64,000 bases of DNA from positions 310,001 to 374,000 of the forward strand of contig NZ_SETE01000004.1 of the NCBI RefSeq assembly GCF_004152935.1. Reading direction: 5' to 3'. Shown here piece by piece: positions 14,397 through 57,661 of this stretch (its first letter is position 1; each line of letters starts with the position of its first letter). Under the pieces are notes generated by a model, which ran no database searches, was not told the origin of the DNA, and saw only the letters and a list, made by a program, of their open reading frames with translations. Both the position numbers and the translations under genes were made by a program. This DNA comes from Brumimicrobium glaciale. GTDB taxonomy: Bacteria > Bacteroidota > Bacteroidia > Flavobacteriales_D > Crocinitomicaceae.

Positions 14397-17300
14397 TTAC
14401 TTAATTATATTCACATTTCCTGACAGCTCCACTTTATTATTGTTTGTAGCTTCCTTAAATTCAATTTTCCAGATATAAACGCCGTCTTGAACTCTTTTTG
14501 CTCCATTTACTCCATAACTTCCATCCCAGCCGTAATTAGCATCATTACTTTCAAACAATAATTCTCCCCATCTATTGTAGATTCTTAATCTATAATCCAT
14601 TGGATCATATCCTGTGTGAAAAACAGGCTTAAAGGTTTCGTTGTACTTGTCACCATCTGGCGTAAAAGTATTCGGAATGTAATAGATTAAATCTGCAACA
14701 TACGGCAGGATTTTATAAACTGTGTCAGCACAACCATACTCGCTATAAGCAATCATCTGAATTGTGTATGAATCCACACCATCTTCTTCACCTGAATAAA
14801 GATGATTTGGATCTGTTAAAGTGCTAGATTCTCCGTCACCAAAGCTCCATTCATACGTTTCTGATCCTATTGATTCATTTGTAAATGACGCTTCATTTTT
14901 AAAGCTTGAAAGTTCGTCTGGATTAACTGAAAAGTCGGCTATTGGATATTCACCTACACAGATATAATCATTTTCTGTGAGATTATTAATACAGCCATAT
15001 TGCGATACCACCTCTAAATTTATATCATAGCATTCTACTGAATTGAATGTATAGTTGACATTAGTTCCTGGTAAAACTGTTGTTCCATTAATAGTGAAAG
15101 TACAGACATCCGTTGGAGTATGTAATAAACTACTAAAGTTCACTTCCAAAGGATAACAACCTGTTAGTGTATCGGCTACAAAATCAGCTAATGGCAATGA
15201 ATGAACTGTTACATCAACTTGATCTGTATTGTCGCAGCCATAAATTGAAGTTCCAGTTACAGTATATGTTTTTGTTCCTACACTTTGTATGAAACTTACG
15301 CCATCAGTTACACCGTTATCCCAAGTATAACTAGTAGCTCCACTTCCATTCAAAATAATTGGATCTCCAATACAAGCATCAATATCACTTCCAGCTAAAA
15401 CCGCTGGTAAAGGATGAATTAAAACAGCCAAAACATCTGAAGAGAAACAATTCGCTAATTCAGCAGTAACCGTATAATAAGTTGTCCCAACTGGCGGTAT
15501 AAATCCAACTCCGTCGGTAACTCCATTGTCCCAAGATATATTGGCACTTTCTGGATTATCAGCATTTAATGTTACAGTAGTTCCTTCACAATGTTCTTGA
15601 TCAAGTCCAGCGTTAATTACTGGTGCATTAGGATCAGATAAGTTGATTGAAATTATTTCTGTCGTACTACAAGATGGACAATCTTCATCATAAACAGTGA
15701 AATTAACGTATGAACTAGCTATTAATCCTGTTATAACATATTCACCTGCTGAGTTTGTTGTTATCGGATAGGAAGCACCTCCATCATAACTCATTTCATA
15801 ATTTGATGAAGGATTAAGCCCTGAAAGTGTAATTGTTCCATTAGCAGCCGCACAAGCTGTTGGATTAGTACTTGAAACTGAGAATGCAGGTGGCGTATAT
15901 GAATCAATAGTAATTGTATGCGTAACATCAATGCTATTTCCACAGTCATCAGTTACACTGTAAATTCGTGTAATTATTTCTCCATCGCATGCATTTCCAT
16001 CTGAACTTTCAGAAACAAATGCAACAGTTGGATTCACTGTACAATTATCTGCTTCATCCGTTACCAAGGCAATATCAGTTGCTGGAACATCGCTTAAACA
16101 TTCCACTGTTAAATCAGTTGGATTACTCGCCGTTGGTAGGATGTCATCGTTGATTGTAATCGTTTGAACTACATCAATGTTATTTCCACAGTCATCAGCG
16201 ATATTGTATGTTCTTGTGATCACTTCTGGACAAGTATTTCCATCTGAAACATCGCTAACATGAGTAACAGTCGGATTTACTGTACAATTATCACCCTCGT
16301 CAGTAATTGCAGTAATATCTACAACCGGAACATCTCCAATACATTGAACTGCGGCATCTGCTGGTGCTGTTCCTGTTGGTAGAATATCGTCGTTGATTGT
16401 AAACGTTTGAATAACATCGATGTTATTTCCACAGTCATCAGCAATATTGTAAGTTCTTGTGATCACTTCTGGACAAGTATTACCATCAGAAACATCACTT
16501 GTATGCGTAACTGTTGGATTTACTGTGCAATTGTCAGCTTCATCTGTGATTGAAGTAATATCCACAACTGGAATATCGCCAAGACATTGAACTGCTAAAT
16601 CTGCAGGTGCTGTTCCTGTTGGAAGAATGTCATCATTTATCGTTATCGTTTGCGTAAGATCAGTGTTATTTCCACAATCATCAGTAATAGTATAAGTTCT
16701 TGTAATTACCTCTGGACAAGTATTTCCATCTGAAACATCTCCAGTATGAACAACTGTTGGAGTTAAAGTACAATTATCTGCTTCATCTGTGATAAATGCG
16801 ATATCTGCCGCCGGAACATCACCAATACACTGAACTGCGATTGCTGCAGGTGCTGTTCCTGTTGGAGCGGTATCGTCATTGATTGTAATCGTTTGTATAA
16901 CATCCATATTATTTCCACAATCATCAGCGATATTGTATGTTCTTGTAATCACTTCTGGACAAGTATTTCCATCTGAAACATCACTAACATGAGTTACAAT
17001 TGGATTAACGGTGCAATTGTCCGCCTCATTGGTAATTGCATTAACATCAACCGCTGGAACATCTCCTATACATTGAACAGCAAGATCTGCTGGTGCATTT
17101 CCTGTTGGGAGAATATCATCATTAATTGTAATTGTTTGAATAACGTTAATGTTATTTCCACAGTCATCCGCAATATTGTATGTTCTTGTGATCACTTCTG
17201 GACAAGTATTTCCATCTGAAACATCTCCAACATGCGTAACAGTTGGGTTTACTGCACAATTATCTGCTTCATCAGTAATGTAATTAATGTCAGGCGCTGG

Positions 17301-20300
17301 AACATCTCCAATACATTGAACTGCTAATGGCGCTGCTGTTCCCGTTGGATCAATATCATCATTAACCGTAAATATCTGTGTAACATCAATGTTATTTCCA
17401 CAAGCATCAGCAATATTGTAAGTTCTTGTAATGACTTCTGGACAAGTATTTCCATCCGAAACATCACTAACATGTGTTACAATTGGGTTTACTGTACAAT
17501 TATCTGCTTCATCTATAATAACTGTAATGTCTGCTGCTGGAATATCTCCGACACATTGAAATGCTAAATCTGCTGGTGCCGTTCCTGTTGGAAGAATATC
17601 ATCATTAATTGTGAATAACTGATTTACATTAATGCTATTTCCACACGCATCGGCAATATTGTAAGTTCTTGTAATTACCTCAGGACAAGTATTCCCGTCT
17701 GACACATCCCCAACATGCGTAACCGTTGGAATAACAGTACAATTGTCAGCTTCATCTGTGATTAAAGTAACATCTGCAGCTGGAATATCTCCGATACATT
17801 GAAATGCTAAATCTGCAGGTGCCGTTCCTGTTGGGAGAATATCATCATTGATTGTTATTATTTGTGTTACGTTAATATTGTTTCCGCAATCATCAGCGAT
17901 ATTGTAAGTTCTTGTAATGATTTCTGGACAAGTGTTTCCGTTTGATACATCTCCAACATACGTTACTGTTGGATTAGTAGTACAATTATCGGCTTCATCA
18001 GTAATTAAAGTAATATCTGCTGCTGGAACATCTCCAATACATTGAACTAAAACTGCTGCTGGTGCAGTTCCGGTTGGGTTGGTGTCATCATCAATTGTAA
18101 TTATTTGAATCACATCAATGTTGTTTCCACAATCATCAGCGATATTGTATGTTCTTGTAATTATTTCTGGACAAGTATTTCCATCTGAAACATCACTAAC
18201 ATGAGTAACAATTGGATTTACTGTACAATTATCAGCTTCATTGGTAATTGCATTAACATCAACCGCTGGAACATCTCCTATACATTGAACTGCAATATCT
18301 GCTGGTGCATTTCCTGTTGGTAGAATATCATCATTAATTGTAAACGTTTGAATAACATCAATGTTATTTCCACAGTCATCAGCAATATTATATGTTCTTG
18401 TGAGCACTTCTGGACAAGTATTTCCATCAGAAACATCTCCAACATGAGTTACAGTTGGGTTTACTGTACAATTATCTGCTTCATCGGTGATTGCATTAAT
18501 ATTTACTGCTGGCACATCTCCAATACATTGAACTAAAACATCTGCTGGTGCAGTTCCTGTTGGAAGAATGTCATCATTGATTGTAAATACCTGTGCAACG
18601 TTAATATTATTTCCACAGTCATCAGCGATATTGTATGTTCTAGTGATTACTTCTGGACAAGTATTTCCATCTGAAACATCACTAACATGAGTAACAGTCG
18701 GGTTTACAGTACAATTATCAGCTTCATCGGTGATTGATGTGATATCTACAACTGGAATATCACCAACACATTGAAATGCTAAATCTGCAGGCGCTGTTCC
18801 TGTTGGATTAGTGTCATCATTAATTGTAAATAACTGAGTAACGTTAATGTTATTTCCGCAAGCATCTGCGATATTGTAAGTTCTAGTAACGATTTCAGGA
18901 CAAGTATTTCCATTTGAAACATCTCCAACATGTGTTACAATTGGATTCACAGTACAGTTATCGGCTTCATCTGTAATTAAAGTAACGTCTGCTGCTGGAA
19001 TATCACCGATACATTGAAATGCTAAATCTGCAGGTGCAGTTCCTGTTGGAAGAATGTCATCATTAACCGTTATGATTTGTGTAACATTAATATTATTCCC
19101 ACATGCATCTGCAATATTGTAAGTTCTAGTAATTATTTCTGGACAAGTATTTCCGTTTGAAACATCACTTACATGTGTAACTATTGGATTTGCTGTACAA
19201 TTATCAGCTTCATCAGTAATTGAAGTAATATCTACTGCCGGAACATCTCCAATACATTGAACTAAAACATCTGCTGGCGCTGTTCCTGTTGGGTTTATAA
19301 GATCATTGATCAGTATTTCTTGCGTACAACTTACTGTTACACCACAAGTATCTGCAATCTGATAAGTTCTTGTAATCGTTTTTGGACAAGTACTTCCATT
19401 TGATATTTCACTAAATAAAACGAATGAAGCTGAATCAATAACTCCTCCTGCTGGAATAGTAGCTGAACCTCCTGCAGCAATAAATTCATCAAAGTCGGCA
19501 TAAGCGGGTTGTTCAGAAATATCACAAGTTGCAGTCAGACCAGCTGGACAAGTAATATCTGTGATCGCTGGCGAAACTGTAATCATCATTTGATCTGAAG
19601 AAAAACAATTCGTTAAATCTGCTGTAACTGTGTAGAAAGTTATTCCAACTGGTGGAACAAAACCAACTCCGTCTGTAACTCCATTATCCCAAGAGAGAAT
19701 TGCTCCACTTGGATTATTAGCCGTTAATATTACCGTTGTTCCTTCACAATATTCTTGGTCAAGTCCTGCATCTATAAATCCGGAAGTTGGATCATTAATA
19801 TTTATAGAAACATTTTCTGTGGTGGTACACGCTGGACAATCTCCATCCGAAACAGTAAAATTAGTGAATGAACCAACGGATAATCCAGTTATGACATATT
19901 CGCCAGCTGCGTTAGTGGTAATAGCGTTGGTTCCACCACCATCATAACTCATTTCATAATTTGTATTTGGATCAAGTCCAGACAGTGTAATTGTTCCATC
20001 ATTACCTCCACAAGATCCTGTTCCTATTCCCGAAACAGTAAATGTTGGTGTGTAAGAATCAATAATAATTGATTGGCTAACATTAATACTGTTTCCACAA
20101 TCATCTGTTACACTATAAATTCGAGTAATTATTTCTCCATTACATGTGTTTGCATCTGTACTTTCTGAAACAAAAGCAACTGTTGGATTTACAGTACAAT
20201 TATCTGTTTCTCCGACAACTTCTGCAATATTTGCAGCTGGAACATCAGTTAAACATTGAACTGTAATTGCAGCTGGATTATTAGCTATTGGATTCGTATC

Positions 20301-23300
20301 GTCGTTGATTGTAAATACTTGCGAAACGTTAATATTATTTCCACAAGCATCTGCAATATTGTAAGTCCTTGTCACTACTTGTGGACAAGAATTTCCATTT
20401 GAAACATCACCTACGTGAGTAATTATAGGATTTACAGTGCAATTATCTGCTTCATCGGTAATCGAGTTTATATCAACAGCTGGAATATCTGCAAAACACT
20501 GTAAAGCTAAATCTGCTGGAGCGGATCCAGTTGGAAGAATATCATCATTAATTGTTATCGTTTGGGTTATATCAGTATTGTTTCCACAATCATCAGTAAT
20601 TCTGTAAGTTCTTGTAATGACTTCTGGACAAGTATTGCCATCCGAAATATCTCCAACATGCGTAACTGTTGGATTTACAGTACAATTATCAGCTTCATCA
20701 GTGATTAATGCTATATCTACTGCTGGAACATCTCCAATACACTGAACTGTAACATTTGCCGGTGCTGTACCTGTTGGATTAATGTCATCAAAAACTGTTA
20801 TTGTTTGCGTAACATTAATATTGTTTCCGCAATCATCAGCAATATTGTAAGTTCTTGTAATTATTTCCGGACAAGTGTTATTATTTGAAACATCTCCAAC
20901 ATGTGTAACTATTGGATTTACCGTACAATTGTCAGCTTCATCGGTAATCAAAGCAATATTTGCAGCTGGAACATTTCCAATACATTGAACCGTTATGTTT
21001 GCAGGAGCTGTTCCGGTTGGAAGAATGTTATCATTGATTGTTATCGTTTGAATGACATCAATGTTATTTCCACAATCATCAGCAATATTGTATGTTCTGG
21101 TGATAATTTCAGCACAGGTATTTCCATTCGACACATCACCGAGATGCGTTACCGTTGGATTTGTTGTACAATTATCAGCTTCGTTAGTAATTGAATTTAT
21201 ATCAGCTACTGGAACATCGCCAATACACTGAACTGTTATATTTGCAGGTGCAGTTCCGGTTGGAAGAATATCATCGTTAACAGTAATGATTTGAGCTACA
21301 TCTGTATTGTTTCCGCAGTCATCAGTAATTCTGTATGTTCTTGTAATAATTTCAGGACAAGTACTTCCATTTGAAACATCACCCACATGACTTACCGTTG
21401 GATTCACTGTACAATTGTCAGCTTCATCGGTAATTGAGTTAACATCAACTGCTGGAACATCGCCAATACATTGAACTGTTGTTGCTGCTGGAGCGGTTCC
21501 CGTTGGGAAAATATCATCGGCGATTGTAAAAACTTGTGTAAGGTCAGTAAAGTTTCCACAAACATCGGTAATTCTGTATGTTCTTGTAATCACTTCCGGA
21601 CAAGTATTGCCATTTGAAACATCACCTTCGTGCGTAACAATAGGGATTCCAGTACAATTATCTGCTTCATCTGTAATTAAAGTAATATCTGCTGCTGGAA
21701 CATCACCTAAACATTGAAGTGTCGCTGCTAAAGGTGCTGTTCCTGTTGGATTTGTATCATCATTAATTGTTATCGTTTGGGTGATGTCAGTATTGTTTCC
21801 ACAATCATCAGTAATTCTATAGGTTCTTGTGATAATTTCAGAACAAGTATTATTATTAGATACATCTCCAACATGTGTAACTGTTGGAATTACAGTACAA
21901 TTATCAGCTTCATCTGTGATTAATGCTATATCTACTGCTGGAACATCTCCAATACACTGAACTGTAACATTCGCTGGTGCTGTTCCTGTTGGATTAGTGT
22001 CATCAAAAACTGTTATTGTTTGCGTCACGTTAATATTGTTTCCGCAATCATCAGCAATATTGTAAGTTCTTGTGATAATTTCTGGACAAGTGTTATTATT
22101 TGAAACATCTCCAACATGCGTAACTATTGGATTTACAGTACAATTGTCAGCTTCATCGGTAATCAAAGCAATATTTGCAGCTGGAACATTCCCAATACAT
22201 TGAACCGTTATGTTTGCAGGAGCAGTTCCTGTTGGGAGAATATTATCATTGATTGTTATCGTTTGAATGACATCAATGTTATTTCCACAATCATCAGCAA
22301 TATTGTATGTTCTGGTGATAATTTCAGCACAGGTATTTCCATTCGACACATCACCGAGATGCGTTACCGCTGGATTTGTTGTACAATTATCCGCTTCATT
22401 TGTAATTGAATTTATATCAGCTACTGGAACATCGCCAATACACTGAACTGTTATATTTGCAGGTGCAGTTCCGGTTGGAAGAATATCATCGTTAACAGTA
22501 ATGATTTGAGTTACATCTGTATTGTTTCCGCAGTCATCAGAAATTCTGTATGTTCTTGTAATAATTTCAGAACAAGTACTTCCATTTGAAACATCACCCA
22601 CATGACTTACCGTTGGATTCACTGTACAATTGTCAGCTTCATCTGTGATTGAGTTAACATCAAATGCTGGAACATCACCAATACATTGAACTGTTGTTGC
22701 TGCTGGAGCGGTTCCCGTTGGGGAAATAACATCGTTGATTGTAAAAACTTGATTAAGGTCAGTAAAGTTTCCACAAGCATCAGTAATTCTGTATGTTCTT
22801 GTAATCACTTCCGGACAAGTATTTCCATTTGAAACATCTCCTTCATGCGTAACAATAGGATTTATAGTACAATTATCCGCTTCATCTGTAATTAAAGTAA
22901 TATCTGCTGCTGGAACATCTCCAACACATTGAAGTGTAGCTGCTACAGGTGCTGTTCCTGTTGGATTTGTGTTATCATTAATTGTTATCGTTTGGGTTAT
23001 ATCAGTATTGTTTCCACAGTCATCAGTAATTCTATAGGTTCTTGTGATAATTTCCGAACAAGTATTATTATTAGATACATCTCCAACATGAGTTACCGCG
23101 GGATTTACAGTACAATTATCAGCTTCATCTGTGATTAATGCTATATCTGCTGCCGGAACTTCTCCAACACATTGCACCGTTATTGCAGCTGGAGCGGTTC
23201 CTGTTGGATCAATATCATCCATAACTGTAATTGTTTGCAAAACATCCGTTGAATTTCCACAACCATCCGTAATTCGGTATGTTCTTGTGATAATTTCCGG

Positions 23301-25499
23301 ACAAGTACCTCCATCAGAAGATTCGCCGATATAAGTAACAATTGGAGTTGTTGTACAATTGTCAGCTTCATCCGTAATTATTGTAATATTTGGCAAAGGA
23401 AGAGCTCCGATACATTGGATCGCAAGAGCTGGTGCTGTACCCGTTGGATTTATAATATCATCAATCTCAATAATTTGAGTACAAGTTTGCGTACTTCCAC
23501 AATCATCTGTTATTTGATATGTTCTTGTGACAGTTTCTGGACACGAATCCCCATCTGAAACTTCAGATAGTAGAATAAATGAATTGGGTAATATTGCGGC
23601 TGTAAAATTAGTTGTCGCTGAACCTCCTGCATTTTGAAAAGCTGTAAAATTAGCATAAGGAGGTTGTTCTGAAATCGCACAATTTGCAGTTAAACTCGGA
23701 GGACAGCTCATCGTTATACTTGAACTGAATATAGTGATTACGATACCTATCGATTCATCACCGCAAAAAGATGGTGAAGAACCACTGTCATTTATATACA
23801 ACGTTTGAGTAGTTGAAATAACATCTCCTGCATTGTATTGGGTTCCAGTTCTGCCCATTCCAGTAAAATAAGCTTCATTTCCTGATAAGTTAGCACCAGT
23901 AATTACTGGAAGTGTGTAAGGTGTACATTGATCCACATTAGGAATCGCATTTACAACGGTATTGGGATTGACAGTTATACAAATTGTAGTATCATAATCA
24001 CAACCTAAATTATCTGTAACTTCATAAGTATAACATGAGTTTCCGAGTGCTGTTGGTAAAACGTTAATAGGATTCGTTCCTCCTAGAATAGTAGGATCAG
24101 GTTGCCAACCTTCTGAAACTATAGTTGGCGTAAAAATAACAGCTGGTGGAATAATAGCAGGATTAAAATTAAGGCTCCAATCAAAAACAAATCCATTATC
24201 TGAATAAAGTTCATCTTTAATAACTAAAGTCCATATTCCGTTTAAGTTACACCCTACCAATCCATTCAGTGGTTCATCAGACTCGTATGATCCTGCTGGA
24301 AGTGTGGTGTTCGAAACTGAGTTAGAAGTCCATGTTCCATTTGTAGCAGTGGGAGTCCAACAATAGTCAAAACCAGTACCTTGGGCATTAGGTAATGCAT
24401 CATTATCGACAGGGATACCCAAATAAGTACCAAAACCGCCAGAATAATCATGCAGTGTAACCATCTGACCATTAGGACAAATGATGTCAATATTTACATC
24501 TCCCATATAGGAGTGTTCCATATTCACACAAATTGAAAGCAAATTATTGATATTGTTTAGTTTTTGTCCAATACTAAAACATTCCAAATTAACTGAAGTT
24601 GAATAGGCTACTCCAGATCCATCAGGCAAAGCAACCGGCGGAAAAACGGGCTGATTACAAGATTTATCAAATGTTACAGGATCTACATCACCAGTTATAG
24701 AAGATGGATCACCTAAACAAATTGTATCGGGAATCGCTATTGATGCGCTAAAATTTGGTGTTGTTGAAACATGAACTTCCTGATTGATTCCATTTGAATT
24801 ATAACAGCCTTTTATATCTTTTAAGTCTAATTGAATAATATAACCTCCTTCATTATTATAGGTATGAGTAACAGTTTGCCCATAATTCGTTACACCATCT
24901 TGTGGTTTCCAAATAAAAGTTGAAGTAGCATCGGATTGGGTATAGAATGAATTGTTTTCTGGATAAGTACCCGTTGCACTCATAGTAATAGAAGCTCCTT
25001 TGCATATCCGAATAATTCCATCTGGATCAGGGGCTGGTGAAAAAGTAGGATTTGCTATAATATCCTGACAATGCAATACACAACCAATAGTTCCAATCCA
25101 CCCAGTGCTATTCACTCCTGTATCTGAAGTAAATACAAATGTTAAGCAACCTGAGGCGTTACTTGGAGTTGCTGTAACTAATCCTGGCCCTACTCCACCT
25201 GTATATACACCTATAACTGGTGCAGAAATATTTGCTCCATCATAAATTGTAAGAAAATCATAATTGTTCTCAATATTAAAACTGGTAAAGTCAACAGTGG
25301 AAGAAGTTCCATTATTTGGACAAATAGTATAGGTTAGGTTTAGATTATCTCCATAATTTCCTAATCCACCGCCTGAATCATAAAAAGTTCCTCCACAAGT
25401 TGAAACGTTGCCACCATTTGTCATGATATATGATTGTGCATGGCTTGAATTAACTCCTATAATTAAGAAAAGAAAAATAATAGAAATTATATGTTTCAT
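14397..25499 (-). CDS. Giant T9SS type B surface protein 1 (28 HYR-like repeats)
   Basis: A 3700-aa secreted protein. The signal peptide is residues 1-22. A CUB-like domain (about 30-140, NYDFLTIYDGANISAPVIG) precedes a PKD-like region (150-245) and a P-domain of the proprotein-convertase type (300-450: NMEHSYMGDVNIDIICPNG and GLVGCNLNGIWTLVIKDE). Then come two arrays of 81-residue HYR-like units, 14 in each (about 700-1815 and 2150-3200). Key residues of each unit are ADNC, NTCPE, RTYNIADDCGN, PTGTAP and VQCIGDVP, giving four cysteines per unit. An SprB/Ig-like segment separates the arrays, and more Ig-like modules follow. A PKD domain (YEWSFGDGESS) lies near 3500-3590. The last 95 residues are the CHU_C type B sorting domain (IPNTFTPDGDKYNETFKPVF, IYNRWGELLFES, GYGWDGSYG-like). 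Likely a cell-surface adhesin or matrix fibre. It follows a small secreted protein gene by 18 bp, probably in one operon. Confidence 0.9.
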   Translation of the reverse strand: MKHIISIIFLFLIIGVNSSHAQSYIMTNGGNVSTCGGTFYDSGGGLGNYGDNLNLTYTICPNNGTSSTVDFTSFNIENNYDFLTIYDGANISAPVIGVYTGGVGPGLVTATPSNASGCLTFVFTSDTGVNSTGWIGTIGCVLHCQDIIANPTFSPAPDPDGIIRICKGASITMSATGTYPENNSFYTQSDATSTFIWKPQDGVTNYGQTVTHTYNNEGGYIIQLDLKDIKGCYNSNGINQEVHVSTTPNFSASIAIPDTICLGDPSSITGDVDPVTFDKSCNQPVFPPVALPDGSGVAYSTSVNLECFSIGQKLNNINNLLSICVNMEHSYMGDVNIDIICPNGQMVTLHDYSGGFGTYLGIPVDNDALPNAQGTGFDYCWTPTATNGTWTSNSVSNTTLPAGSYESDEPLNGLVGCNLNGIWTLVIKDELYSDNGFVFDWSLNFNPAIIPPAVIFTPTIVSEGWQPDPTILGGTNPINVLPTALGNSCYTYEVTDNLGCDYDTTICITVNPNTVVNAIPNVDQCTPYTLPVITGANLSGNEAYFTGMGRTGTQYNAGDVISTTQTLYINDSGSSPSFCGDESIGIVITIFSSSITMSCPPSLTANCAISEQPPYANFTAFQNAGGSATTNFTAAILPNSFILLSEVSDGDSCPETVTRTYQITDDCGSTQTCTQIIEIDDIINPTGTAPALAIQCIGALPLPNITIITDEADNCTTTPIVTYIGESSDGGTCPEIITRTYRITDGCGNSTDVLQTITVMDDIDPTGTAPAAITVQCVGEVPAADIALITDEADNCTVNPAVTHVGDVSNNNTCSEIITRTYRITDDCGNNTDITQTITINDNTNPTGTAPVAATLQCVGDVPAADITLITDEADNCTINPIVTHEGDVSNGNTCPEVITRTYRITDACGNFTDLNQVFTINDVISPTGTAPAATTVQCIGDVPAFDVNSITDEADNCTVNPTVSHVGDVSNGSTCSEIITRTYRISDDCGNNTDVTQIITVNDDILPTGTAPANITVQCIGDVPVADINSITNEADNCTTNPAVTHLGDVSNGNTCAEIITRTYNIADDCGNNIDVIQTITINDNILPTGTAPANITVQCIGNVPAANIALITDEADNCTVNPIVTHVGDVSNNNTCPEIITRTYNIADDCGNNINVTQTITVFDDTNPTGTAPANVTVQCIGDVPAVDIALITDEADNCTVIPTVTHVGDVSNNNTCSEIITRTYRITDDCGNNTDITQTITINDDTNPTGTAPLAATLQCLGDVPAADITLITDEADNCTGIPIVTHEGDVSNGNTCPEVITRTYRITDVCGNFTDLTQVFTIADDIFPTGTAPAATTVQCIGDVPAVDVNSITDEADNCTVNPTVSHVGDVSNGSTCPEIITRTYRITDDCGNNTDVAQIITVNDDILPTGTAPANITVQCIGDVPVADINSITNEADNCTTNPTVTHLGDVSNGNTCAEIITRTYNIADDCGNNIDVIQTITINDNILPTGTAPANITVQCIGNVPAANIALITDEADNCTVNPIVTHVGDVSNNNTCPEIITRTYNIADDCGNNINVTQTITVFDDINPTGTAPANVTVQCIGDVPAVDIALITDEADNCTVNPTVTHVGDISDGNTCPEVITRTYRITDDCGNNTDITQTITINDDILPTGSAPADLALQCFADIPAVDINSITDEADNCTVNPIITHVGDVSNGNSCPQVVTRTYNIADACGNNINVSQVFTINDDTNPIANNPAAITVQCLTDVPAANIAEVVGETDNCTVNPTVAFVSESTDANTCNGEIITRIYSVTDDCGNSINVSQSIIIDSYTPTFTVSGIGTGSCGGNDGTITLSGLDPNTNYEMSYDGGGTNAITTNAAGEYVITGLSVGSFTNFTVSDGDCPACTTTENVSININDPTSGFIDAGLDQEYCEGTTVILTANNPSGAILSWDNGVTDGVGFVPPVGITFYTVTADLTNCFSSDQMMITVSPAITDITCPAGLTATCDISEQPAYADFDEFIAAGGSATIPAGGVIDSASFVLFSEISNGSTCPKTITRTYQIADTCGVTVSCTQEILINDLINPTGTAPADVLVQCIGDVPAVDITSITDEADNCTANPIVTHVSDVSNGNTCPEIITRTYNIADACGNNINVTQIITVNDDILPTGTAPADLAFQCIGDIPAADVTLITDEADNCTVNPIVTHVGDVSNGNTCPEIVTRTYNIADACGNNINVTQLFTINDDTNPTGTAPADLAFQCVGDIPVVDITSITDEADNCTVNPTVTHVSDVSDGNTCPEVITRTYNIADDCGNNINVAQVFTINDDILPTGTAPADVLVQCIGDVPAVNINAITDEADNCTVNPTVTHVGDVSDGNTCPEVLTRTYNIADDCGNNIDVIQTFTINDDILPTGNAPADIAVQCIGDVPAVDVNAITNEADNCTVNPIVTHVSDVSDGNTCPEIITRTYNIADDCGNNIDVIQIITIDDDTNPTGTAPAAVLVQCIGDVPAADITLITDEADNCTTNPTVTYVGDVSNGNTCPEIITRTYNIADDCGNNINVTQIITINDDILPTGTAPADLAFQCIGDIPAADVTLITDEADNCTVIPTVTHVGDVSDGNTCPEVITRTYNIADACGNSINVNQLFTINDDILPTGTAPADLAFQCVGDIPAADITVIIDEADNCTVNPIVTHVSDVSDGNTCPEVITRTYNIADACGNNIDVTQIFTVNDDIDPTGTAAPLAVQCIGDVPAPDINYITDEADNCAVNPTVTHVGDVSDGNTCPEVITRTYNIADDCGNNINVIQTITINDDILPTGNAPADLAVQCIGDVPAVDVNAITNEADNCTVNPIVTHVSDVSDGNTCPEVITRTYNIADDCGNNMDVIQTITINDDTAPTGTAPAAIAVQCIGDVPAADIAFITDEADNCTLTPTVVHTGDVSDGNTCPEVITRTYTITDDCGNNTDLTQTITINDDILPTGTAPADLAVQCLGDIPVVDITSITDEADNCTVNPTVTHTSDVSDGNTCPEVITRTYNIADDCGNNIDVIQTFTINDDILPTGTAPADAAVQCIGDVPVVDITAITDEGDNCTVNPTVTHVSDVSDGNTCPEVITRTYNIADDCGNNIDVVQTITINDDILPTASNPTDLTVECLSDVPATDIALVTDEADNCTVNPTVAFVSESSDGNACDGEIITRIYSVTDDCGNSIDVTHTITIDSYTPPAFSVSSTNPTACAAANGTITLSGLNPSSNYEMSYDGGASYPITTNSAGEYVITGLIASSYVNFTVYDEDCPSCSTTEIISINLSDPNAPVINAGLDQEHCEGTTVTLNADNPESANISWDNGVTDGVGFIPPVGTTYYTVTAELANCFSSDVLAVLIHPLPAVLAGSDIDACIGDPIILNGSGATSYTWDNGVTDGVSFIQSVGTKTYTVTGTSIYGCDNTDQVDVTVHSLPLADFVADTLTGCYPLEVNFSSLLHTPTDVCTFTINGTTVLPGTNVNYTFNSVECYDINLEVVSQYGCINNLTENDYICVGEYPIADFSVNPDELSSFKNEASFTNESIGSETYEWSFGDGESSTLTDPNHLYSGEEDGVDSYTIQMIAYSEYGCADTVYKILPYVADLIYYIPNTFTPDGDKYNETFKPVFHTGYDPMDYRLRIYNRWGELLFESNDANYGWDGSYGVNGAKRVQDGVYIWKIEFKEATNNNKVELSGNVNIIK
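20700..23130 (-). repeat. Tandem duplication of a five-repeat block inside giant gene 1
   Basis: Repeat units 2-6 and 7-11 of the first array correspond one to one, including private variants such as THLGDVSNGNTCAEI, THEGDVSNGN and TVFDD. The offset is 1215 bp, exactly five 81-codon units (for example positions 20901 and 22116 begin near-identical DNA). Boundaries are approximate. This indicates a recent in-frame duplication by unequal recombination. Confidence 0.8.
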
Positions 25500-25517
25500 A
25501 AAAGGATTTTTGTAGTA

Positions 25518-25964
25518 TTATTTGTTTGAAATAGACTTTATATTTCTCACTTTACGATTAATGTTTTGACTGGAATAGATTACTATAACAGATCTTTCGT
25601 TTTTACTTAAACGAAATGCTCCTTCCTCAATAGTTGGAAAAGAGTAATTTAAAAAATTGAAATCTGGACTTTTTGTAGCTTTTGAAAATTGATTCGCTGA
25701 AATTTCCTTTTTTAAATACAAAACTTTAGGTAATTCTTTATAAGATGAGAATTTTTCCTTTGAAACTGTTTCAATTTCATAACCTTCAGTAGATTTCATT
25801 TTAAGGTATTCAATCAAGCCTGGATTATCTATTATACAATTTTCATATTTTGAAGTCCCCAGAAATTCCTCAACGAGTTGATCTGTTGACTTATTTTGGG
25901 CGAATAGAAAAGTGGTTGATGAAAATGAAAATATTAGTAAAATCAATTGTATTAAGTACTTCAT
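25518..25964 (-). CDS. Small secreted protein paired with giant gene 1
   Basis: Family not recognised. The 148-aa product has a signal peptide (cleavage expected after TTFLFAQ, about residue 23) followed by NKSTDQLVEEFL, NPGLIEYLKMKS and LPKVLYLKKEISANQF. It is a paralogue of the protein at 32738-33085: both share FLFAQ-x-K-x-TDQ, GLI-x-Y and an LYL-K-x-IS-x-QF segment, and both lie directly upstream of a giant CUB/P-domain protein gene. The 18-bp gap to giant gene 1 suggests co-transcription. A role as partner, chaperone or anchor of the giant protein is inference. It has no CHU_C or Por tail, so it probably stays in the periplasm. Confidence 0.75.
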   Translation of the reverse strand: MKYLIQLILLIFSFSSTTFLFAQNKSTDQLVEEFLGTSKYENCIIDNPGLIEYLKMKSTEGYEIETVSKEKFSSYKELPKVLYLKKEISANQFSKATKSPDFNFLNYSFPTIEEGAFRLSKNERSVIVIYSSQNINRKVRNIKSISNK

Positions 25965-32727: not shown

Positions 32728-32737
32728 AAATTGGGCT

Positions 32738-33085
32738 TTATGGTTTTACTGTAGTTAGAAAAGAATTATTTGAAATCTTAAAATCGCCAGCATTATTATC
32801 AGTATCGAATTGATCTAATGATATTTTTTTATACAAATACAAAATGGAAAGAAGCTGTTGAATACAATGGAAATGACTAGCAGGGAAAGTTTCAATAAGG
32901 CGGTCATAAATAACTTTCACATTAGAGTACTTTATTAAACCTAGATTATTAGCCAAACTTCTTTCACTTCTTTCTGATCTTAAAAAATAATTTACAAATT
33001 GATCAGTATTTTTTATCTGAGCGAACAGAAAAAACATTGAAAAATTAAAAAATGAAAGCGGAATTATTTTTATAAAAAGCGTCAT
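32738..33085 (-). CDS. Small secreted protein paired with giant gene 2, shortened paralogue
   Basis: A 115-aa paralogue of the 148-aa protein at 25518-25964, with shared signal-peptide end FFLFAQIKNTDQFVNYFL, a GLIKYSNVK segment and ILYLYKKISLDQF. It stops at the position of the longer protein's PTIEEGA, so about 30 C-terminal residues (the NERSVIVIYSSQ part) are missing. This could be a truncation that damages function. The 10-bp gap to giant gene 2 suggests an operon. Function unknown. Confidence 0.65.
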   Translation of the reverse strand: MTLFIKIIPLSFFNFSMFFLFAQIKNTDQFVNYFLRSERSERSLANNLGLIKYSNVKVIYDRLIETFPASHFHCIQQLLSILYLYKKISLDQFDTDNNAGDFKISNNSFLTTVKP

Positions 33086-40979: not shown

Positions 40980-43900
40980 TTACCTAAGTAAATTAACACT
41001 CCCCACAATCTCAACATTCTCTCCATCTCTTATTTTCTTGTAATATATTTTATAAAGATAAGTTCCTTCTTGTGCATAAATTGTTTGACTTGAACCGTAA
41101 GAACCGTCCCAACCATAAGCTGGATTATTGCTTTCAAAAATCAATTCTCCCCAACGGTTATAAATCTGTAATTTGTATTCTAGCGGTTCAAATCCAGAAG
41201 TAAATTGTGGCTTAAATGACTCATTGTATTGATTTCCATCTGGTGTAAATGTATTTGGAATGAAGTAAATCAATTCCTCAAAAAATGGTAAATCTAAATT
41301 GAAAGTATCTTTACAGCCTAAATTACTCGTTGCGACTAATTCCACATCAAAAATGAATTTTCTGCTAATCTCATCCACTGAATATTCATGCGTTGGATTT
41401 ATTGCATTGCTGAAATCTCCATCTCCGAAATTCCATTCGTAGTCTGTCGCTCCAGTAGTTTCATTTGTGAAATCTGCAATGTTATAAATGTTTGTCAATT
41501 CTTCTGGATTTACAGTGAAATCAGCAATTGGATAATCATCGATACATATGTAATCCGTAACTGTTAAGTCATCGGTACAACCATTTGTTAATTCCACTTG
41601 TAGATTGATATCATAACAACCCGCTTCTGTGAAAATAGGGTTTACGTTACATCCTGTAAACTGTTCCCCACCATTAATTGTGTAAATACATTGATTTCCA
41701 ATTCCAGGCGAAGTACTAAATAAGTTGATTTCTTGTGGAGCACAACCAATTGTTCTGTTCGCAGTAAAAGATACATCTGGAGAAATAATTACTTCAACAT
41801 CCACTTGGTCTGTGTTCACACATCCAAAAACAGATGTTCCGATTACAGTATAAGTAACTGTTCCTAATGTTGGAGTAAAAGGAACATTATCAGTAACTCC
41901 ATTGTCCCACAAATAAGTAGTTGCTCCACTTGCGGCCAAAGTTACCTCATCTCTATCACAAATTACTTTGTCAATTCCTGCATTCACAATCGGTAAAGGA
42001 TTTATAGTAACTTGAACTTGATCTGTTGTGAAACAATTGACCCTTTCGGCAGTTACTGTGTATGTCGAAATTCCGACTGGGGAAACAAAACCAACTCCGT
42101 CCACTACTCCATTGTTCCAAGAAATATTAGCTGCATCTGGATTAAAAGCTGTTAAAGTGATTATATCATTTTCACATGCTACAATGTCAGATCCTGCATT
42201 TACAACAGGTGGAATTGGATCAGTTAATGTCATGGTCACATTGTCTGTTGTACTGCAGGTTAAGCATGTTCCTTCAGTGATTGTAAATCCAGTATAAGCT
42301 CCTTGAACTAAACCTGTGATTGTGTATTCTCCAGCCGCATCAGTTGTGATAGAAAAAGCAGTTCCACCAGCATAACTTAATTCATAATTGAAACTTGGTG
42401 CTAATCCAGAAAGTGTAATTGTACCTTCGTTTCCATCGCAAGTTGTCGGATTTGTGCTTGAAACGGTAAAAACAGGATCAAATAAATCAATAACTATTAT
42501 TTGAGTCACGTTTCTAAAGTTCCCACAATCATCTGTAACGCTATAAATACGTGTAATTTGTTCTCCATTACAAGTGTTTGCATCCGTTGCTTCTGATAAA
42601 AATGCCACGGTAGGATTTACTGTACAATTATCAGCTTCGTCGGTTACTTCTGTAATATCTGTCAAAGGAACATCAGCCAAACAAGCTACAAATATTGTAT
42701 CTGGATTACTTGCTGTTGGTAGAATATCGTCATCAATTGTAATGGTTTGAATAACGTCAATGTTATTTCCACATTTATCTTCAATGTTATAGGTTCTTGT
42801 GATGACTTCCGGACAAGTATTTCCATCTGAAACATCACTCACATGAGTCACAGTTGGAATTGCAGAACAGTTGTCGGCTTCGTCAGTGATTGAGTTAACG
42901 TCTACAACTGGAACATCACCAATACATTGCACTAACGTATCATTTGGCGCTGTTCCTGTTGGTAAAATAATTTCGCTAATTACAATTTGTTGCGTACACG
43001 TTAAAGTCACGCCACACGTATCTGCAATTTGGTAAGTTCTTGTAATTGTTTCTGGACAAGTTATTCCATCAGAAACTTCACTGAATAAAGAAAATGAAGT
43101 TGAGTCAATTACTCCTCCTAAGGGAATAGTTGCAGAACCTCCAGCGGTAATAAATTCTTCAAAATCAGCATAAGCAGCTTGTTCGGAAATGTCACATGAA
43201 GCGGTTAAATCTGCTGGACAAGTAATGTCCGTAATTGCAGGAGAAACGGTAATCATCATTTGATCTGAAGAATAACAGTTCACACGAACAGAAGTCACGG
43301 TGTAAAAAGTTGTTCCAACAGGCGGAATAAATCCTACACCATCCGTTACACCATTATTCCATGAAATATTTGCATTTTCAGGATTAAAAGCATTTAAAAC
43401 TACAGTTGTTCCTTCACAATATTGAGCATCTGGCCCAGCATTTATAATAGCCGCCGTTGGGTCATTGATGTTTATGGAAACGTTTTCAGTAGTTGTACAA
43501 GAAGAACAATCACCATCTGAAACAGTGTAATTCGTATAAGAACCAGCTGGAAGTCCTGTAATAACATATTCACCCGCAGCGTTTGTTACAAATGGGATAA
43601 CTCCTCCTCCATCATAACTCAAGTCATAATTATAGTTAGGTATAAGCCCTGAAATAGTTATAAACCCATCACTTCCATCACAAGTTGTTGTCCCTGTTCC
43701 TGAAACTGTGAATGTCGGCGTATAAGAATCGACAGTAATTGTATGATTCACAGTTATGCTATTTCCACAATCATCTGTCACGCTGTAAACTCTTGTAATT
43801 TCTTGGCCATTACACGTATTTGCATCTGTACTTTCAGAAACAAAAGCAACCGTTGGATTTGTTGTGCAATTGTCCGCTTCGTCTGAAACTACAGAAATAT

Positions 43901-45965: not shown

Positions 45966-46667
45966 AAATAATTTCGTTGAAATATATTAAGATTAGATAT
46001 AAATCTTAATAATGCCACGAATTTAGAGGAAAATATTTTATTTCCCGCTATCTCTCTACTCCTTTACTTAGAAAATTAAAATGAAATGTGGCATTACGAA
46101 ATCATTGGAAGATTTTATAGAATTAAAAACAACTGACTACCAATTGATTAAAAACGCTCAATTCTAATCATCGTCATCTTTTTTATTGATGATACTTGAA
46201 TTATAAAAACTTTAAAAAAAATAATAGTCCAATTTTGCAAGCTCTTTTCATACCTATAAAGAGTAAACTGTAAACCATTAATACCAGCAAGATCCCTCAT
46301 TAAAATTCATTTTCAACAAGTTCGAAAAATAATTTTAGTGATTGAAGGACTCTTCAGGTGGCGGAGAGCTTTTGTTGGAGAGCTAAGCCTGTGTGCGTTG
46401 TATTACGTCAAGAAATGTTGTGTAAAGGTTATGAAAGTGATAGTAAAACCATCAACATTGTGATGATTATTAGAACTGAGCCATAAAAGTTATCCAGAAA
46501 AATATGGTTATATATGATTTTGTGTGGGTAGTTTTAAAATCTATGGTTTTAATTGAAGCTAAACGATTGTTAATTTGGTTCTACTTTTATTTAAATGGAA
46601 ACTTTCTATTAAAATAAATTTCGACCAACCTTATAAAGCACTGTTAATTAATTATTTACCACTCTAA
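45966..46667. other. Intergenic region upstream of giant gene 4
   Basis: No gene recognised in about 700 bp. TAAATTCG on the minus strand (plus 46018-46025), about 53 bp from the giant-4 start, is a TAnnTTCG-type candidate -7 box. TAAGATT / AATCTTA (45988-46008) and TAATGCCAC / GTGGCATTA (46010-46018 and 46088-46096) are inverted repeats in the presumed leader and promoter area. Confidence 0.35.
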
Positions 46668-46860
46668 ATCCCAGAGGGACGGCATGTTAATAGGGATGGA
46701 CGTAAGTCCATCCGCCAAACGATACAAACCGAAACAAAACCCAACAAAATCGACCTAATTGCATGCAGTTAGGTCGATTTTGTTGGGTTTTGTATTACAT
46801 CTATTTGTTTTAAACCAAGGACTTTCGTCCTTGGCTATTAACATGCCGTCCCGACGGGAA
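46668..46860. mobile_element. REP/MITE-like palindromic element
   Basis: A nested inverted structure without a gene. The outer arms are an 18-bp perfect inverted repeat (GGGACGGCATGTTAATAG at 46676-46693; complement at 46835-46852), each bordered by a small CCC-GGG hairpin. Inside are two 8-bp hairpins (GGATGGAC-GTAA-GTCCATCC, 46694-46713; CCAAGGAC-TTTC-GTCCTTGG, 46815-46834). At the centre is a 25-bp perfect inverted repeat with a 10-nt loop (46734-46758 / 46769-46793). Paired hairpins in opposite orientation are typical of REP/BIME elements moved by RAYT (IS200-like) transposases; the transposase is not in the window. Confidence 0.7.
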
Positions 46861-47020
46861 TAACCAGCTGAAATACAGGACTCCATATGCTTTCTTGCAA
46901 GAATTAAATGATGATTTGGATAATTAATTTAAAAATACAACTCATGTAGGTTACAGTTAAATTCGTAGTAGAACTATTAATTTTTCAAAGGATTAATATT
47001 GATTACCCAAAGTATTTCAT
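46861..47020 (-). repeat. Left copy of a 160-bp imperfect inverted repeat around giant gene 5
   Basis: Its reverse complement aligns along its whole length with 55063-55222, including ATGAAATACT, GGGTAATCAAT, GAAAAATTAATAGT, GAATTTAACTGTAACC, GAGTTGTATTT and GGTTA, with scattered substitutions and small gaps. It abuts the REP-like element. Confidence 0.8.
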
Positions 47021-47044
47021 CTAGATCCAAAAATATTATGGAGC

Positions 47045-47083
47045 AAAAAAAAATCAAAGAAAACTAAAGTCTTCTTTGATTTT
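47045..47083 (-). terminator. Rho-independent terminator of giant gene 5
   Basis: On the minus strand a 12-bp perfect stem (AAAATCAAAGAA / TTCTTTGATTTT) with a 10-nt loop is followed by a run of T (plus 47045-47049 and beyond). It lies about 78 bp after the giant-5 stop. Confidence 0.85.
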
Positions 47084-47160
47084 ATATTTTGTTCTAATTA
47101 GACACAAAGGAAATATGTGTTTAATTGTATTGTACTTTAATAAGTCATTTATGTGAGAAC

Positions 47161-50100
47161 TTACCTCAACAAATTCACACTTCCGATGATTTCAACATTT
47201 TCATCATCTTTTAATTTCTTAAAGCTTACTTTCCAAAGATAAGTTCCTTCTGGAGCATAAATTGTTTGGCTTGAACCATAAGAACCGTCCCAACCATAAG
47301 CTGGATCATTACTTTCAAAAATCAATTCTCCCCAACGGTTATATATTTTTAGGTTATATTCTAAAGGATCGAACCCAGATGTGAATACAGGCTTAAATGT
47401 TTCATTATACAGATTTCCATCTGGCGTAAATGTATTTGGAATATTGTAAATTAAGTCTTCATAGAAAGGCAATTCACCAATAATTGAATCAGCACATCCT
47501 AAGTCGCTGTAAGCAATCAGTTTTACATCATAGATGAATTCAGCTGGATTTCCTAACACTGAATACTCATGAATTGGATTTATTGAGTTGCTATATGTAT
47601 TATCACCAAAACTCCAATCATAAGTAACCGCTCCAATCGACTCGTTTGTGAAATCTATCTCGTTGTTAAATGTTGAAAGTTCTTCAGGATCTATTGAGAA
47701 ATCAGCAATTGGATAATCATCAACACATATATAATCGATGATCGTTTCATTGGCAGAACATCCATTTGTCAATTCTACTTCCAAATTAACATCATAACAA
47801 CCTGCTTCCGTAAATATATTACTCACATTACAACCCGTTAAAACAACATTTCCACCGATAGTAAATGTACACTGATTAGATACTCCACCTGTTGTACTTA
47901 TGAAGTTAATTTCTTCTGGCGCACAACCTTCTCTCGTGTTTGAAGTAAAAGAGACAACAGGAACAGGAAGTACTCTTACTTGAACTTGAGCTGTAGCTAC
48001 ACATCCAAAGATTGATGTTCCTGTCACAGTGTATGTTTCAGTTCCAAGCGGCTGTGTAAAAGGTACACCATCTACAACACCGTTATCCCATACATAAGTA
48101 GCCGCTCCACTTCCAGATAAAGTAACTTGTTCTCCTTCACAAACTTCAGTAAACATACCACCAGAAACATTTGGAGTTGGTGCAACAACTACAATAACAT
48201 CATCAGTTGCAAAACAGTTGGCTAATTCTGCTGTTACTGTATAAGTTGTAGAACCAACTGGTTGAACAAATGCAACACCGTCAGTTACTCCATTATTCCA
48301 TGAGATATTCGCTGCATCTGGATTTAAAGCAGTTAAAGTTATTGACTCATTTTCGCACACTTGCATATCAGCTCCTGCATCTACAGCAGGTGGAAGTGGA
48401 TCCGTTAATGTAATGGTCACATTTTCTGTTGTACTACATTCTGAACATGTTGCTTCAGTTACAGTAAAATCTATATACGTTCCTTCTGCAAGTCCTGTTA
48501 TAGTATATTCACCTGCGGCATTTGTTGTAATTGAATTTGAAGCTCCACCTCCATAACTTACTTCATAGTTTGAAGAAGCATCAAGTCCTGCAATAACAAT
48601 TGTTCCATCAGTTCCTAAACAAGTTGTAGGATCAGTCCCAGAAACAGTAAACGCAGGTGCAACAGCATCAATCGTTATAGTTTGTGTCACTTCTGCAAAG
48701 TTTCCACAATCATCCGTAATTCTATATGTTCTTGTGATTTCCTCTCCATTACATGTATTTCCATCAGAAGCATCAGATTCAAATGTCACTGTTGGATTAA
48801 CTGTGCAATTATCTGCTTCATCTGTAATAGCGGCAGGATCTCCAACTGGAACATCTGCTAAACAAGCTACGTTTATATCAGCCGGAGCAGTTGCCGTTGG
48901 ATCAGTATCATCATTAATAGTAAATGTTTGAACGACATCTATATTGTTTCCACAATCATCAGCAATATTGTATGTTCTTGTAATCACCTCTGGACAAGTA
49001 TTTCCATCTGAAACATCTCCAGTGTGTGTAATTATCGGATTAACCGTACAGTTATCCGCTTCATCAGTAATTGAAGTAATATCTGCTGCTGGAACATCTG
49101 TAATACATTGAACCGCTAAATCTGCAGGCGCTGTTCCTGTTGGCAAAACATCATCAGTAATCGTTATTGTTTGAACAACATCAATGTTATTACCACAATC
49201 ATCTGCAATGTTGTATGTTCTTGTAATTACTTGTGGACAAGTGTTTCCATCTGACACATCTCCAACATGAGTAACGGTTGGAGCTACAGTACAATTGTCA
49301 GCTTCATCTGTAATTAATGCAACATCTGCTGCTGGAACGTCTGTAATACATTGTAATGCTAAATCTGCAGGAGCTGTTCCTGTTGGGAGAATATCATCAC
49401 TAACTGTAATTAATTGTGTTACATCAATACTATTTCCACAGTCGTCTGCAATGTTATAAGTTCTTGTAACAGTTAAAGGACAAGTATTTCCATCTAAAAC
49501 ATCTCCAGTATGTGTAACAATCGGGTTCACTGTACAGTTATCAGCTTCATCAGTAATTGAAGTAATGTCTACAGCTGGAATATCAGCAAAACACTGAACT
49601 GCGACTGCTGCAGGAGCTGTTCCTGTTGGGAAAACATCATCATTAATTGTGAATTCTTGCGTAACATCTATGCTATTTCCGCAATCATCAGCGATGTTGT
49701 AAGTTCTTGTAATTACCTGTGGACATGTATTCCCATCTGAAACATCGCCAGTATGTGTAACCGTTGGGCTAGCAGTACAGTTGTCAGCTTCATCTGTAAT
49801 TAAAGTTACATCTGCTGCTGGAATGTCTCCCATACATTGAAATGCCATTGCTGCAGGTGCTGTTCCTGTTGGATTAGTATCATCATTTATTGTAATGGTT
49901 TGCGTCACGATTGTATTATTTCCACAACCATCTGCAATAGCGTAAGATCTAGTAATTACTTCTGGACACGTATTTCCATCTGAAACATCTCCAGCAAAAG
50001 TAACAGTTGGAATTGCCGTACAATTGTCAGCTTCATCTGTAATTAATGTAGCATCTGGTAATGGAACATCTCCAATACATTGAAATACTAGTGGACCAGG

Positions 50101-57298: not shown

Positions 57299-57661
57299 GA
57301 TAAACAAGACCAATGATAAAAGTACCGCAAAGATGCGCGGAGGTGCAGAGATTCGCAGAGGAAAGTAAGTAAGTAAGAAGAGGTTTTATGTAGGGAAGTG
57401 ATTAACCATGTGAAGATTCCTTTTCCGGCGGTAATTTTGAGTGGTGGGAAATTGGGGATGAGTGCGCTTTACTTCTAAGACAAACAAGGCCAATGATAAA
57501 AGTACCGCAAAGATGCGCGGAGATTCTGCAGAGATTCGCAGAGGAAAGTAAGTAAGAAAGAAGAGGTTTTATGTAGGGAAGTGATTAACCATGTGAAGAC
57601 TCCTTTTCCGGCGGTAATTTTGAGTGGTGGGAAGTTGGAAGTGAGTCCGCTATATTTTTAG
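57218..57661 (+). repeat. Triplicated 3' end of the DUF2279 gene
   Basis: A unit of 180-183 bp, covering the last codons of the gene (VINHVKIPFPSVILSGGKLE...) plus its 3' trailer, occurs at 57218-57397, 57398-57580 and (incomplete) 57581-57661. Copies 2 and 3 still encode the same C-terminal peptide with few changes and end in stop codons. Each trailer in copies 1 and 2 carries a CGCAGAG repeat (57324-57361, 57504-57544) and AAGTAAGTAAG. A further CGCAGAG copy is at 57684-57725. Confidence 0.9.

Follow-up and report, generated by a model that had tools for sequence, protein, structure and literature searches.

A variable chromosomal array of giant HYR_4C-repeat genes in Brumimicrobium glaciale, probably encoding type IX-secreted fibrillar adhesins

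Five giant genes that lie side by side in the genome of Brumimicrobium glaciale probably constitute an expandable array of fibrillar adhesins, secreted by the type B route of the type IX secretion system (T9SS), at a fixed chromosomal site. The architecture of the genes, their site and its variation in copy number, an exchange of tails, and the linkage of a small partner gene to one type of tip are all read from sequence. The window analysed here is the whole stretch of 64,000 nucleotides that contains the array (G000:C4:310001-374000, i.e., contig C4 of a 4.27-Mb, 12-contig genome); it includes no N, and coordinates refer to it unless a contig is named. An earlier note on this DNA had described the five repeat proteins; what the present analysis adds is the fixed but variable site, the exchange of tails, the grammar of the repeat arrays, and the small upstream partner gene.

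In the mechanism that we infer, each giant would be exported by Sec and then through the T9SS (SprA) via its CHU_C end, and a shuttle of the PorP/SprF type, provided in trans, would retain it at the surface. The HYR_4C units, which stand in tandem and have four cysteines each, would form a stiff acidic stalk, and this stalk would present an interchangeable N-terminal tip (CUB-PKD-P-domain, Reelin-B-like, or that of P5) to a ligand. The array would have grown by tandem duplication, while recombination would keep the tails alike within a genome and let the tips differ, plausibly because several giants must dock on the same shuttle. Lastly, the gene directly upstream of the CUB-tipped P1 would supply it with a small secreted protein, which most likely helps the tip in the periplasm. 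The locus would thus offer a testable evolutionary and secretion system, with distinct tips and homogenised tails. In the open-access literature, outside of which most subscription papers lie, we found no mention of HYR_4C and no published account of HYR-domain proteins with type IX secretion; nor did we find, in the open-access literature, one of Brumimicrobium adhesins or type IX secretion, or one linking the CUB domain to T9SS CHU_C substrates.

Architecture of the giants and their stalks

The giants are numbered P1 to P5 from left to right, so that P5 is the furthest upstream in the direction of transcription. As the earlier note had stated, they are five consecutive open reading frames (ORFs) on one strand. 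This is the minus strand, and the frames encode 3700, 2077, 2306, 1661 and 2529 amino acids; every frame is open, the coding total is 36.8 kb, and the gaps between the genes measure 535-1195 nt. P1 (14397..25499) begins with a CUB-PKD-P-domain tip, followed by a first array of 14 HYR_4C units (20058..23459), an Ig-like linker, and a second array of 14 units (15903..19301); C-terminal to the latter are Ig-like modules, PKD, and CHU_C (14436..14678). P2 (26494..32727) also has a CUB-PKD-P-domain tip, with arrays of 6 and 2 units and a tail of the shared type that includes CHU_C (26548-26775). P3 (33524..40444; CHU_C at 33578-33805) and P4 (40980..45965; CHU_C at 41034-41261) carry a Reelin_subrepeat-B-like tip and a shared-type tail, and have arrays of 9 and 7 units and 8 units over two arrays, respectively. 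P5 (47161..54750; CHU_C at 47206-47445) has an unclassified N-terminal region of approximately 1380 residues and a single array of 8 units, and the last ~200 nt of its tail resemble the shared type. The common plan with two arrays drawn in the earlier note therefore does not extend to P5. Bordering on these genes, a unit of ~110-121 nt with many AATTC-type heptamers is repeated head to tail about four times and fills the gap between pyrF and the end of P1 (13933-14384); the P4-P5 gap contains nested inverted repeats (46669-46859), with 41-nt arms (83%) around a hairpin with 30-nt arms (97%), looking like a small non-autonomous mobile element. A Bacteroidota promoter pattern gave three scattered matches in the intergenic stretches of the array.

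The tips fall into dissimilar classes. Pfam matches to CUB, PKD and the proprotein-convertase P-domain, all of them domains that the earlier note had named, occur in the N-termini of P1 and P2, and matches to Reelin_subrepeat-B in those of P3 and P4; the first ~1380 residues of P5 gave only sub-threshold Ig-like matches. Tip identity is 58-59% between P1 and P2 and 56% between P3 and P4. The giants are modular, with dissimilar tips (CUB-PKD-P-domain, Reelin-B-like, and unclassified) on a common tail. Fibrillar adhesins likewise combine an N-terminal tip with tandem stalk domains and are subject to domain shuffling, as described in PMC8286594 and PMC10952558, and the main text of the former, a survey from 2021, contains neither 'HYR' nor 'CUB'. 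Set against their defining features, the giants have the stalk repeats, and the candidate tip domains are CUB and P-domain in P1 and P2, Reelin_subrepeat-B in P3 and P4, and none in P5; they differ from known fibrillar adhesins in being sorted by a T9SS signal and in having a tip-linked secreted partner. Matches to CUB and the P-domain do not suffice to establish adhesion, and the adhesive role of the tips is putative.

The stalk units belong to HYR_4C (PF23237). Whole-protein E-values in P1-P5 range from 3.2e-35 to 9.9e-140, so chance is excluded, and the whole-protein scores, 120.6-455.4 bits, exceed the curated cut-off of 27 bits in all five; the CHU_C and HYR models, on which the earlier note had staked its reading of the array, thus match in every giant, the latter in the form of HYR_4C. 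With hmmscan, and each stretch required to reach E <= 0.01 alone, P1-P5 contain 28, 9, 16, 8 and 7 HYR_4C stretches; a search of the whole genome gives 28, 9, 16, 8 and 8, i.e., 69 of its 97 matches. The approximate unit counts of the earlier note (28, 8, 16, 8 and 8) hold for P1, P3, P4 and P5, and P2 has 9, with one partial unit extra. Classic HYR (PF02494), by contrast, has no match in the window, and its sole match in the genome lies outside it; we therefore reject the classic HYR annotation of the giants, including the family name 'HYR' of the earlier note. Among solved structures, HYR_4C has no convincing relative. The family was present in 27 of the 40 genomes searched, that of B. glaciale included, and the stalk units of the giants match it by the curated cut-off, as other HYR_4C proteins of Bacteroidota do; what sets this locus apart from these is the concentration of 69 matches in five neighbouring genes, the copy-variable site, and the exchangeable tips and tails.

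Brumimicrobium includes cold-water species, and it could be imagined that the giants are adhesins for ice or sea-ice diatoms, akin to the giant RTX ice adhesin. Classic HYR has been described beside an ice-binding domain in proteins from Arctic metagenomes (PMC9957290); no ice-binding domain was reported by Pfam in the five giants, though, and their units are HYR_4C rather than classic HYR. We give this explanation almost no credence.

Within the stalks, units follow one another at a spacing of 80-81 residues. A unit pattern caught 66 of them, missing at least two diverged units of P4 as well as partial units. The assertion that each unit has four cysteines is correct for 65 of these 66; one has three. 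The cysteine spacing is 19-18-14 in 56 units and 19-18-15 in 9. The giants are in general strongly acidic, with 485 D/E versus 63 K/R in P1. It is fair to infer that tandem four-cysteine units of this kind would give rise to long, disulfide-stabilised fibres; with 28 units, a length on the order of 100 nm would be expected.

The arrays also have a grammar. Judged by eye from the list of units, all nine close with the same type of unit (CNGE..TRIYSVTDDCGN or a near variant). The units with a PTAS-like start form a group of 10, namely eight of the nine array-end units and two ordinary ones (P3 747 and P4 505); mean identity is 0.60 within this group and 0.43 to the other units, and the latter have 0.69 among themselves. 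In array 1 of P1, units five positions apart are the most alike, with a mean DNA identity of 0.83 and a maximum of 0.984, compared with means of 0.57-0.74 at the remaining offsets as far as 12 and of 0.47 at 13. Six consecutive pairs at offset 5 have DNA identities of 0.885-0.984, and we therefore conclude that a block of five units was duplicated (22002-23216 versus 20787-22001). The offset-5 signal is weaker in array 2 of P1 (0.80, versus 0.56-0.78 at other offsets). Between different giant genes, blastn detected no long near-identical stretches at the thresholds used, a screen of little informative value because blastn averages over long gapped alignments; fixed windows reach an identity of 0.94, and one pair of units reaches 0.984.

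Predicted secretion by the T9SS

Type B T9SS export of the giants, as the earlier note had proposed, is supported by their domains. CHU_C (PF13585) is C-terminal in all five, at 42.9-48.4 bits versus a cut-off of 27, in agreement with the tails read previously from the letters. TIGR04131 (cut-off, 35 bits) is matched above the cut-off by P1 (37.1), P2 (37.6), P3 (38.1) and P4 (37.2), and P5, with 34.4 bits, falls short by 0.6. The genome encodes SprA, in one 2501-residue frame with two SprA_N matches. By eye, each giant has a signal-peptide-like start followed by Q, which upholds the signal peptides noted before; a Q in this position fits the Q-rule described for Bacteroidetes (PMC5837995).

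Of 40 CHU_C matches in the genome, 38 are over the cut-off. PorP/SprF has 9 matches genome-wide, four of which directly adjoin a CHU_C match; none of the 9 is located in the array or elsewhere in the window, and a local PorP/SprF partner for the array is thus rejected. The nearest, 15.6 kb from P1, sits beside another CHU_C match. At its left edge, the window includes part of a DUF7948-PKD protein (2-2923), whose frame runs beyond it (G000:C4:307878-309080). By its length, this is the 1368-residue frame whose CHU_C match adjoins a PorP/SprF gene; that is, a conventional substrate-shuttle pair is found 15 kb from the shuttle-less array. For Flavobacterium johnsoniae, PMC12618676 describes type B C-terminal domains (CTDs) that rely on cognate PorP/SprF shuttles and in which conserved motifs are necessary, together with three orphan type B substrates that use one trans-encoded shuttle; SprF is reported to be bound by the CTD of SprB (PMC9143113). 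The mechanism proposed here predicts, likewise, that several giants use one PorP/SprF shuttle.

The SprB/SprF system of F. johnsoniae is among the closest known parallels, in that SprB also combines a signal peptide, a very long repetitive body, and a type B CTD (CHU_C). The giants might therefore be gliding-motility adhesins moved along the cell surface as SprB is, a view with which their size, the type B CTD, and the presence of SprA all agree. Unlike SprB, however, they have HYR_4C stalks, occur as several paralogues with different tips, and are not adjoined by an sprF-like gene in any of the five cases. The 'SprB linker' of the earlier note is likewise unsupported, because no SprB-repeat model matches P1-P5 at E <= 0.01. 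On balance, we regard a gliding function as unlikely and retain the fibrillar-adhesin reading.

Beyond the cation-efflux gene at the right-hand border of the array, a 180-nt tandem repeat (57216-57651; 2.4 copies at 92%) overlaps the end of an ORF for a DUF2279 lipoprotein. Further on, at 59290-62617, a Por_Secre_tail sorting signal and DUF7619 occur together in one protein, which adjoins an FG-GAP repeat protein with 165-nt tandem repeats.

A variable site and the exchange of tails

The array lies between pyrF (OMP decarboxylase; 13043..13864, plus strand) and a cation-efflux (CDF) gene (55356..56228, minus strand), which form the borders of a variable site. The comparison of the locus among relatives that the earlier note had suggested was made across ten genomes of the genus, namely that of B. 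glaciale and nine others; probable names are uncultured Brumimicrobium sp. 4-911 (G001), B. oceani C305 (G002), B. aurantiacum N62 (G003), B. mesophilum JCM 14063 (G004), and B. salinarum LHR20 (G005). pyrF was found in all ten. The efflux gene was also matched in all ten, over 62 residues only in G006 and at 49% in G008. Between the two genes are five giants in B. glaciale, three in B. oceani, two in B. aurantiacum, one in sp. 4-911, and at least one in B. salinarum, this last count being a lower bound as the two border genes were assembled on separate contigs, of which one ends in a CUB-tipped N-terminal piece and the other starts in a P1-type tail piece. No giant occupies the site in G004, G007 or G009, where the gap is ~0.44 kb, ~20 nt and ~1 kb, respectively. 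In G006 and G008 the efflux gene is apart from pyrF, and the sequence read on either side of pyrF, 8 kb and 6 kb in total, respectively, contains no giant. Closely related species thus carry from 0 to 5 giants at a single site. The giant-free gaps of G004, G009 and G007 have no blastn match to the flanks of the array at E <= 1e-3, and neither a target-site duplication nor a mobile element was found at the giant-free sites, the gap in G007 being too short to tell.

The edges of the site are the same in several relatives. A CUB-tipped gene adjoins pyrF in B. glaciale, G001, G002 and G003, and a P5-tipped gene adjoins the efflux gene in B. glaciale, G002 and G003; the middle giant of the B. oceani site has another tip, with Laminin_G_3. 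Because these edge positions are common to the relatives, the P1- and P5-type genes look older at the site, and P2-P4 would have been added later. With 97 HYR_4C matches, the B. glaciale genome has the highest number of the ten; the others have 2-53, numbers that may be too low because their assemblies are mostly more fragmented. Five further frames with HYR_4C and CHU_C are found elsewhere in the B. glaciale genome (C4 at ~96-102 kb, two on C5, and one each on C6 and C2). The two on C5, C5a and C5b, are on the same strand (L106:531-12739), separated by an opposite-strand ORF of 501 residues; both B. oceani relatives (L120, L121) are likewise adjoined by an ORF that has the same C-terminal end. 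The earlier note had also supposed that the five giants act as a combined system, and this is unsupported, because the ten genomes carry anything between 0 and 5 giants at the site, the genes are separated by 535-1195 nt, and five frames lie elsewhere.

The tips are conserved as separate classes across species: that of P5 shares 76% identity over 1382 residues with the corresponding tip in B. oceani, and that of P1 is 59-64% identical across four relatives. This bears on the possibility that the giants bind one another as structural proteins of a matrix or of cell-cell contacts, their stalks being functional as an extracellular mesh and the tips being of minor importance. Very long acidic repeats and several paralogues in one genome would be expected of such proteins. 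The conservation of the tip classes, and the fact that the CUB tip often has its own linked gene, argue instead for proteins in which the tips matter, and we consider the matrix explanation rather improbable, though less so than the other alternatives to an array of tip-presenting adhesins.

The tails have a different history from the tips. Over the last 560 residues, P2, P3 and P4 are 89-93% identical to one another, and the tails of P1 and P5 are 54-68% identical to these. Among P2-P4, tail dS is 0.36-0.60 and dN is 0.04-0.07; tip dS, in contrast, is ~1.5 for both P1-P2 and P3-P4, and we therefore reject the view that P1-P4 arose solely through recent duplication of whole genes. In a maximum-likelihood tree of 19 tails, P2, P3 and P4 form one clade (support, 99/97) with two unlinked paralogues in the same genome, C4d (contig C4, ~96-102 kb) and C5b (contig C5, ~113-119 kb). 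This clade spans four tip classes, among which blastp detects no tip similarity at E <= 1e-10. In AU tests on the tails, tip-class clades were rejected for three of the four classes, namely C4d paired with its tip relative from B. oceani (p-AU 1.2e-6), the C5 tip class (5.4e-5), and the CUB class (1.3e-6); a Reelin-tip clade of P3 and P4 was not rejected (p 0.236). A search with the tail alignment returned Brumimicrobium loci as the best, and many of the 74 loci are from Crocinitomicaceae or other Flavobacteriales.

Compared in ungapped 200-nt steps upstream from the stop codon, C5b is a mosaic. In its last 800 nt, it has an identity of 0.89-0.94 to P2 and of 0.66-0.79 to its tip sister C5a; from 1600 to 2800 nt upstream of the stop, the relationship is inverted, with 0.84-0.92 to C5a and 0.69-0.82 to P2. 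P5 has 0.82-0.83 to P2-P4 in the last 200 nt and 0.66-0.75 just before. At fourfold sites in the last 200 alignment columns, P2 and C5b agree at 38 of 50, and C5b agrees with the two tip relatives that it has in B. oceani at 15 of 36 and 22 of 39. For P2 and C4d the agreement is 34 of 51, and for C4d and the one tip relative that it has in B. oceani 16 of 38. These numbers are small, and their noise is visible in single blocks, e.g., in P1-G3 with 8 of 10. Beyond the stop codon, P2 drops to an identity of 0.33-0.38 with C4d and C5b; that of P3 to P4 is 0.81, and that of P2 to P3 and P4 is 0.53-0.58; the 3' flanks of P2-P4 yield blastn matches of 74-84%, partly of low complexity. Taken together, the tail clade across tip classes and the AU rejections indicate that tails have been exchanged between loci by recombination, for which gene conversion later than the separation of the species would be the simplest route; P2-P4 also have flanks in common, as tandem duplicates do. 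A homogenised tail may be favoured because the giants would have a PorP/SprF shuttle in common.

It might be objected that the array results mainly from unequal crossing-over, repeats and gene copies being gained and lost under little selection. The variation from 0 to 5 copies between close species is in line with this, as are the duplicated five-unit block and a truncated partner copy in front of P2. Genes under little selection would not, however, be expected to keep five frames open over 36.8 kb, to conserve four cysteines in 65 of 66 pattern-caught units, or to show purifying selection on the P2-P4 tails such as the above dN and dS values reveal, among them a dN of 0.043 against a dS of 0.355. 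We therefore judge this explanation very unlikely, and favour an array of adhesins that expands and remains under selection.

A small secreted partner of the CUB tip

Directly upstream of P1 is an ORF of 148 residues (25518..25964, minus strand), with a signal-peptide-like start followed by Q, whose stop codon lies 18 nt before the P1 start. A truncated and diverged copy of 115 residues (32738..33085, minus strand) precedes P2, with its stop 10 nt before the P2 start; no relatives are found upstream of P3, P4 or P5. The partner ORF also precedes the CUB-tipped giant in G001, G002, G003 and G005. A third copy in the B. glaciale genome is on contig C3, 2 nt upstream of a compact CHU_C frame of 924 residues.

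A profile of six partner sequences gave 28 matches in 25 of 150 genomes of the family. At 26 of these loci the downstream ORF is readable, i.e., on the same strand and of at least 200 residues, and all 26 match a CUB-tip profile (E <= 5.5e-77; gaps of -8 to +41 nt); since the profile was built from six of the 28 loci, the independent support is 20 of 20. Of the other two, L147 has a CUB tip by eye and L149 stops at a contig end. A wider partner profile gave 21 matches in 19 of 395 genomes of the class: 14 have a CUB-tip profile match downstream (two being the array copies in B. glaciale and one the C3 copy), L162 has a CUB tip by eye, L164 seems to be a genuine partner but is followed by no CUB frame and is counted as an exception, and five were set aside as chance signal-peptide or fragment matches (L168, L170, L171, L172, L174). 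The real class-wide partners fall under seven family codes (f1, f9, f16, f31, f39, f44, f46). A small gene family without a model in the libraries searched thus accompanies a single type of tip across several families of the class.

In the opposite direction, the CUB-tip profile itself matches in 126 of the 150 family genomes (E <= 1e-30). Of the 30 tip loci listed, 22 have a partner within 40 nt, and three more have one that the start-codon rule missed, namely L190 (gap of -8) and L185 and L186 (partner-adjacent ORF in frame with the tip match); the other five (L194, L198, L203, L206, L207) are counted neither with nor without a partner. No partner was detected upstream of the CUB-tipped giant on contig C6 of B. 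glaciale. A partner is thus a strong predictor of the tip; the tip predicts a partner less well, as this C6 giant shows. Nor is a partner needed beside every CUB tip, since C6 has none, the P2 copy is truncated, and partners occur in 25 of the 150 genomes, compared with 126 for the tip.

The close proximity of the two reading frames suggests that the partner may be a helper of the tip, and the mechanism proposed here predicts that a CUB-tipped substrate would need the partner to which it is linked. Because Pfam and NCBIfam scans reported no T9SS sorting model for it, a periplasmic location is the simplest guess. No member of the partner family matches Pfam convincingly, nor do six partner sequences match NCBIfam convincingly, and the partner has no convincing relative of solved structure. 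A more tentative proposal, which we consider possible though short of probable, is that the partner founds an uncharacterised family of tip-specific periplasmic helpers, i.e., a co-translated chaperone or assembly factor that would keep the CUB-P-domain tip competent until the CTD engages the translocon. If true, the handling of T9SS substrates would have a further layer, set by the N-terminus, besides the CTD-shuttle layer that is already known.

The compact C3 protein resembles the CUB-tipped giants in its CUB-tip profile match, adjoining partner, P-domain, PKD, and CHU_C. It differs from them in having no HYR_4C array, and its CUB assignment comes from the tip profile, Pfam having reported no CUB; it perhaps resembles the scaffold that received the arrays by insertion. 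Four CUB-tip matches stand in a row in a different genus of the family (G018:C3:248284-259551), and these perhaps form an independent tandem array of the CUB tip type.
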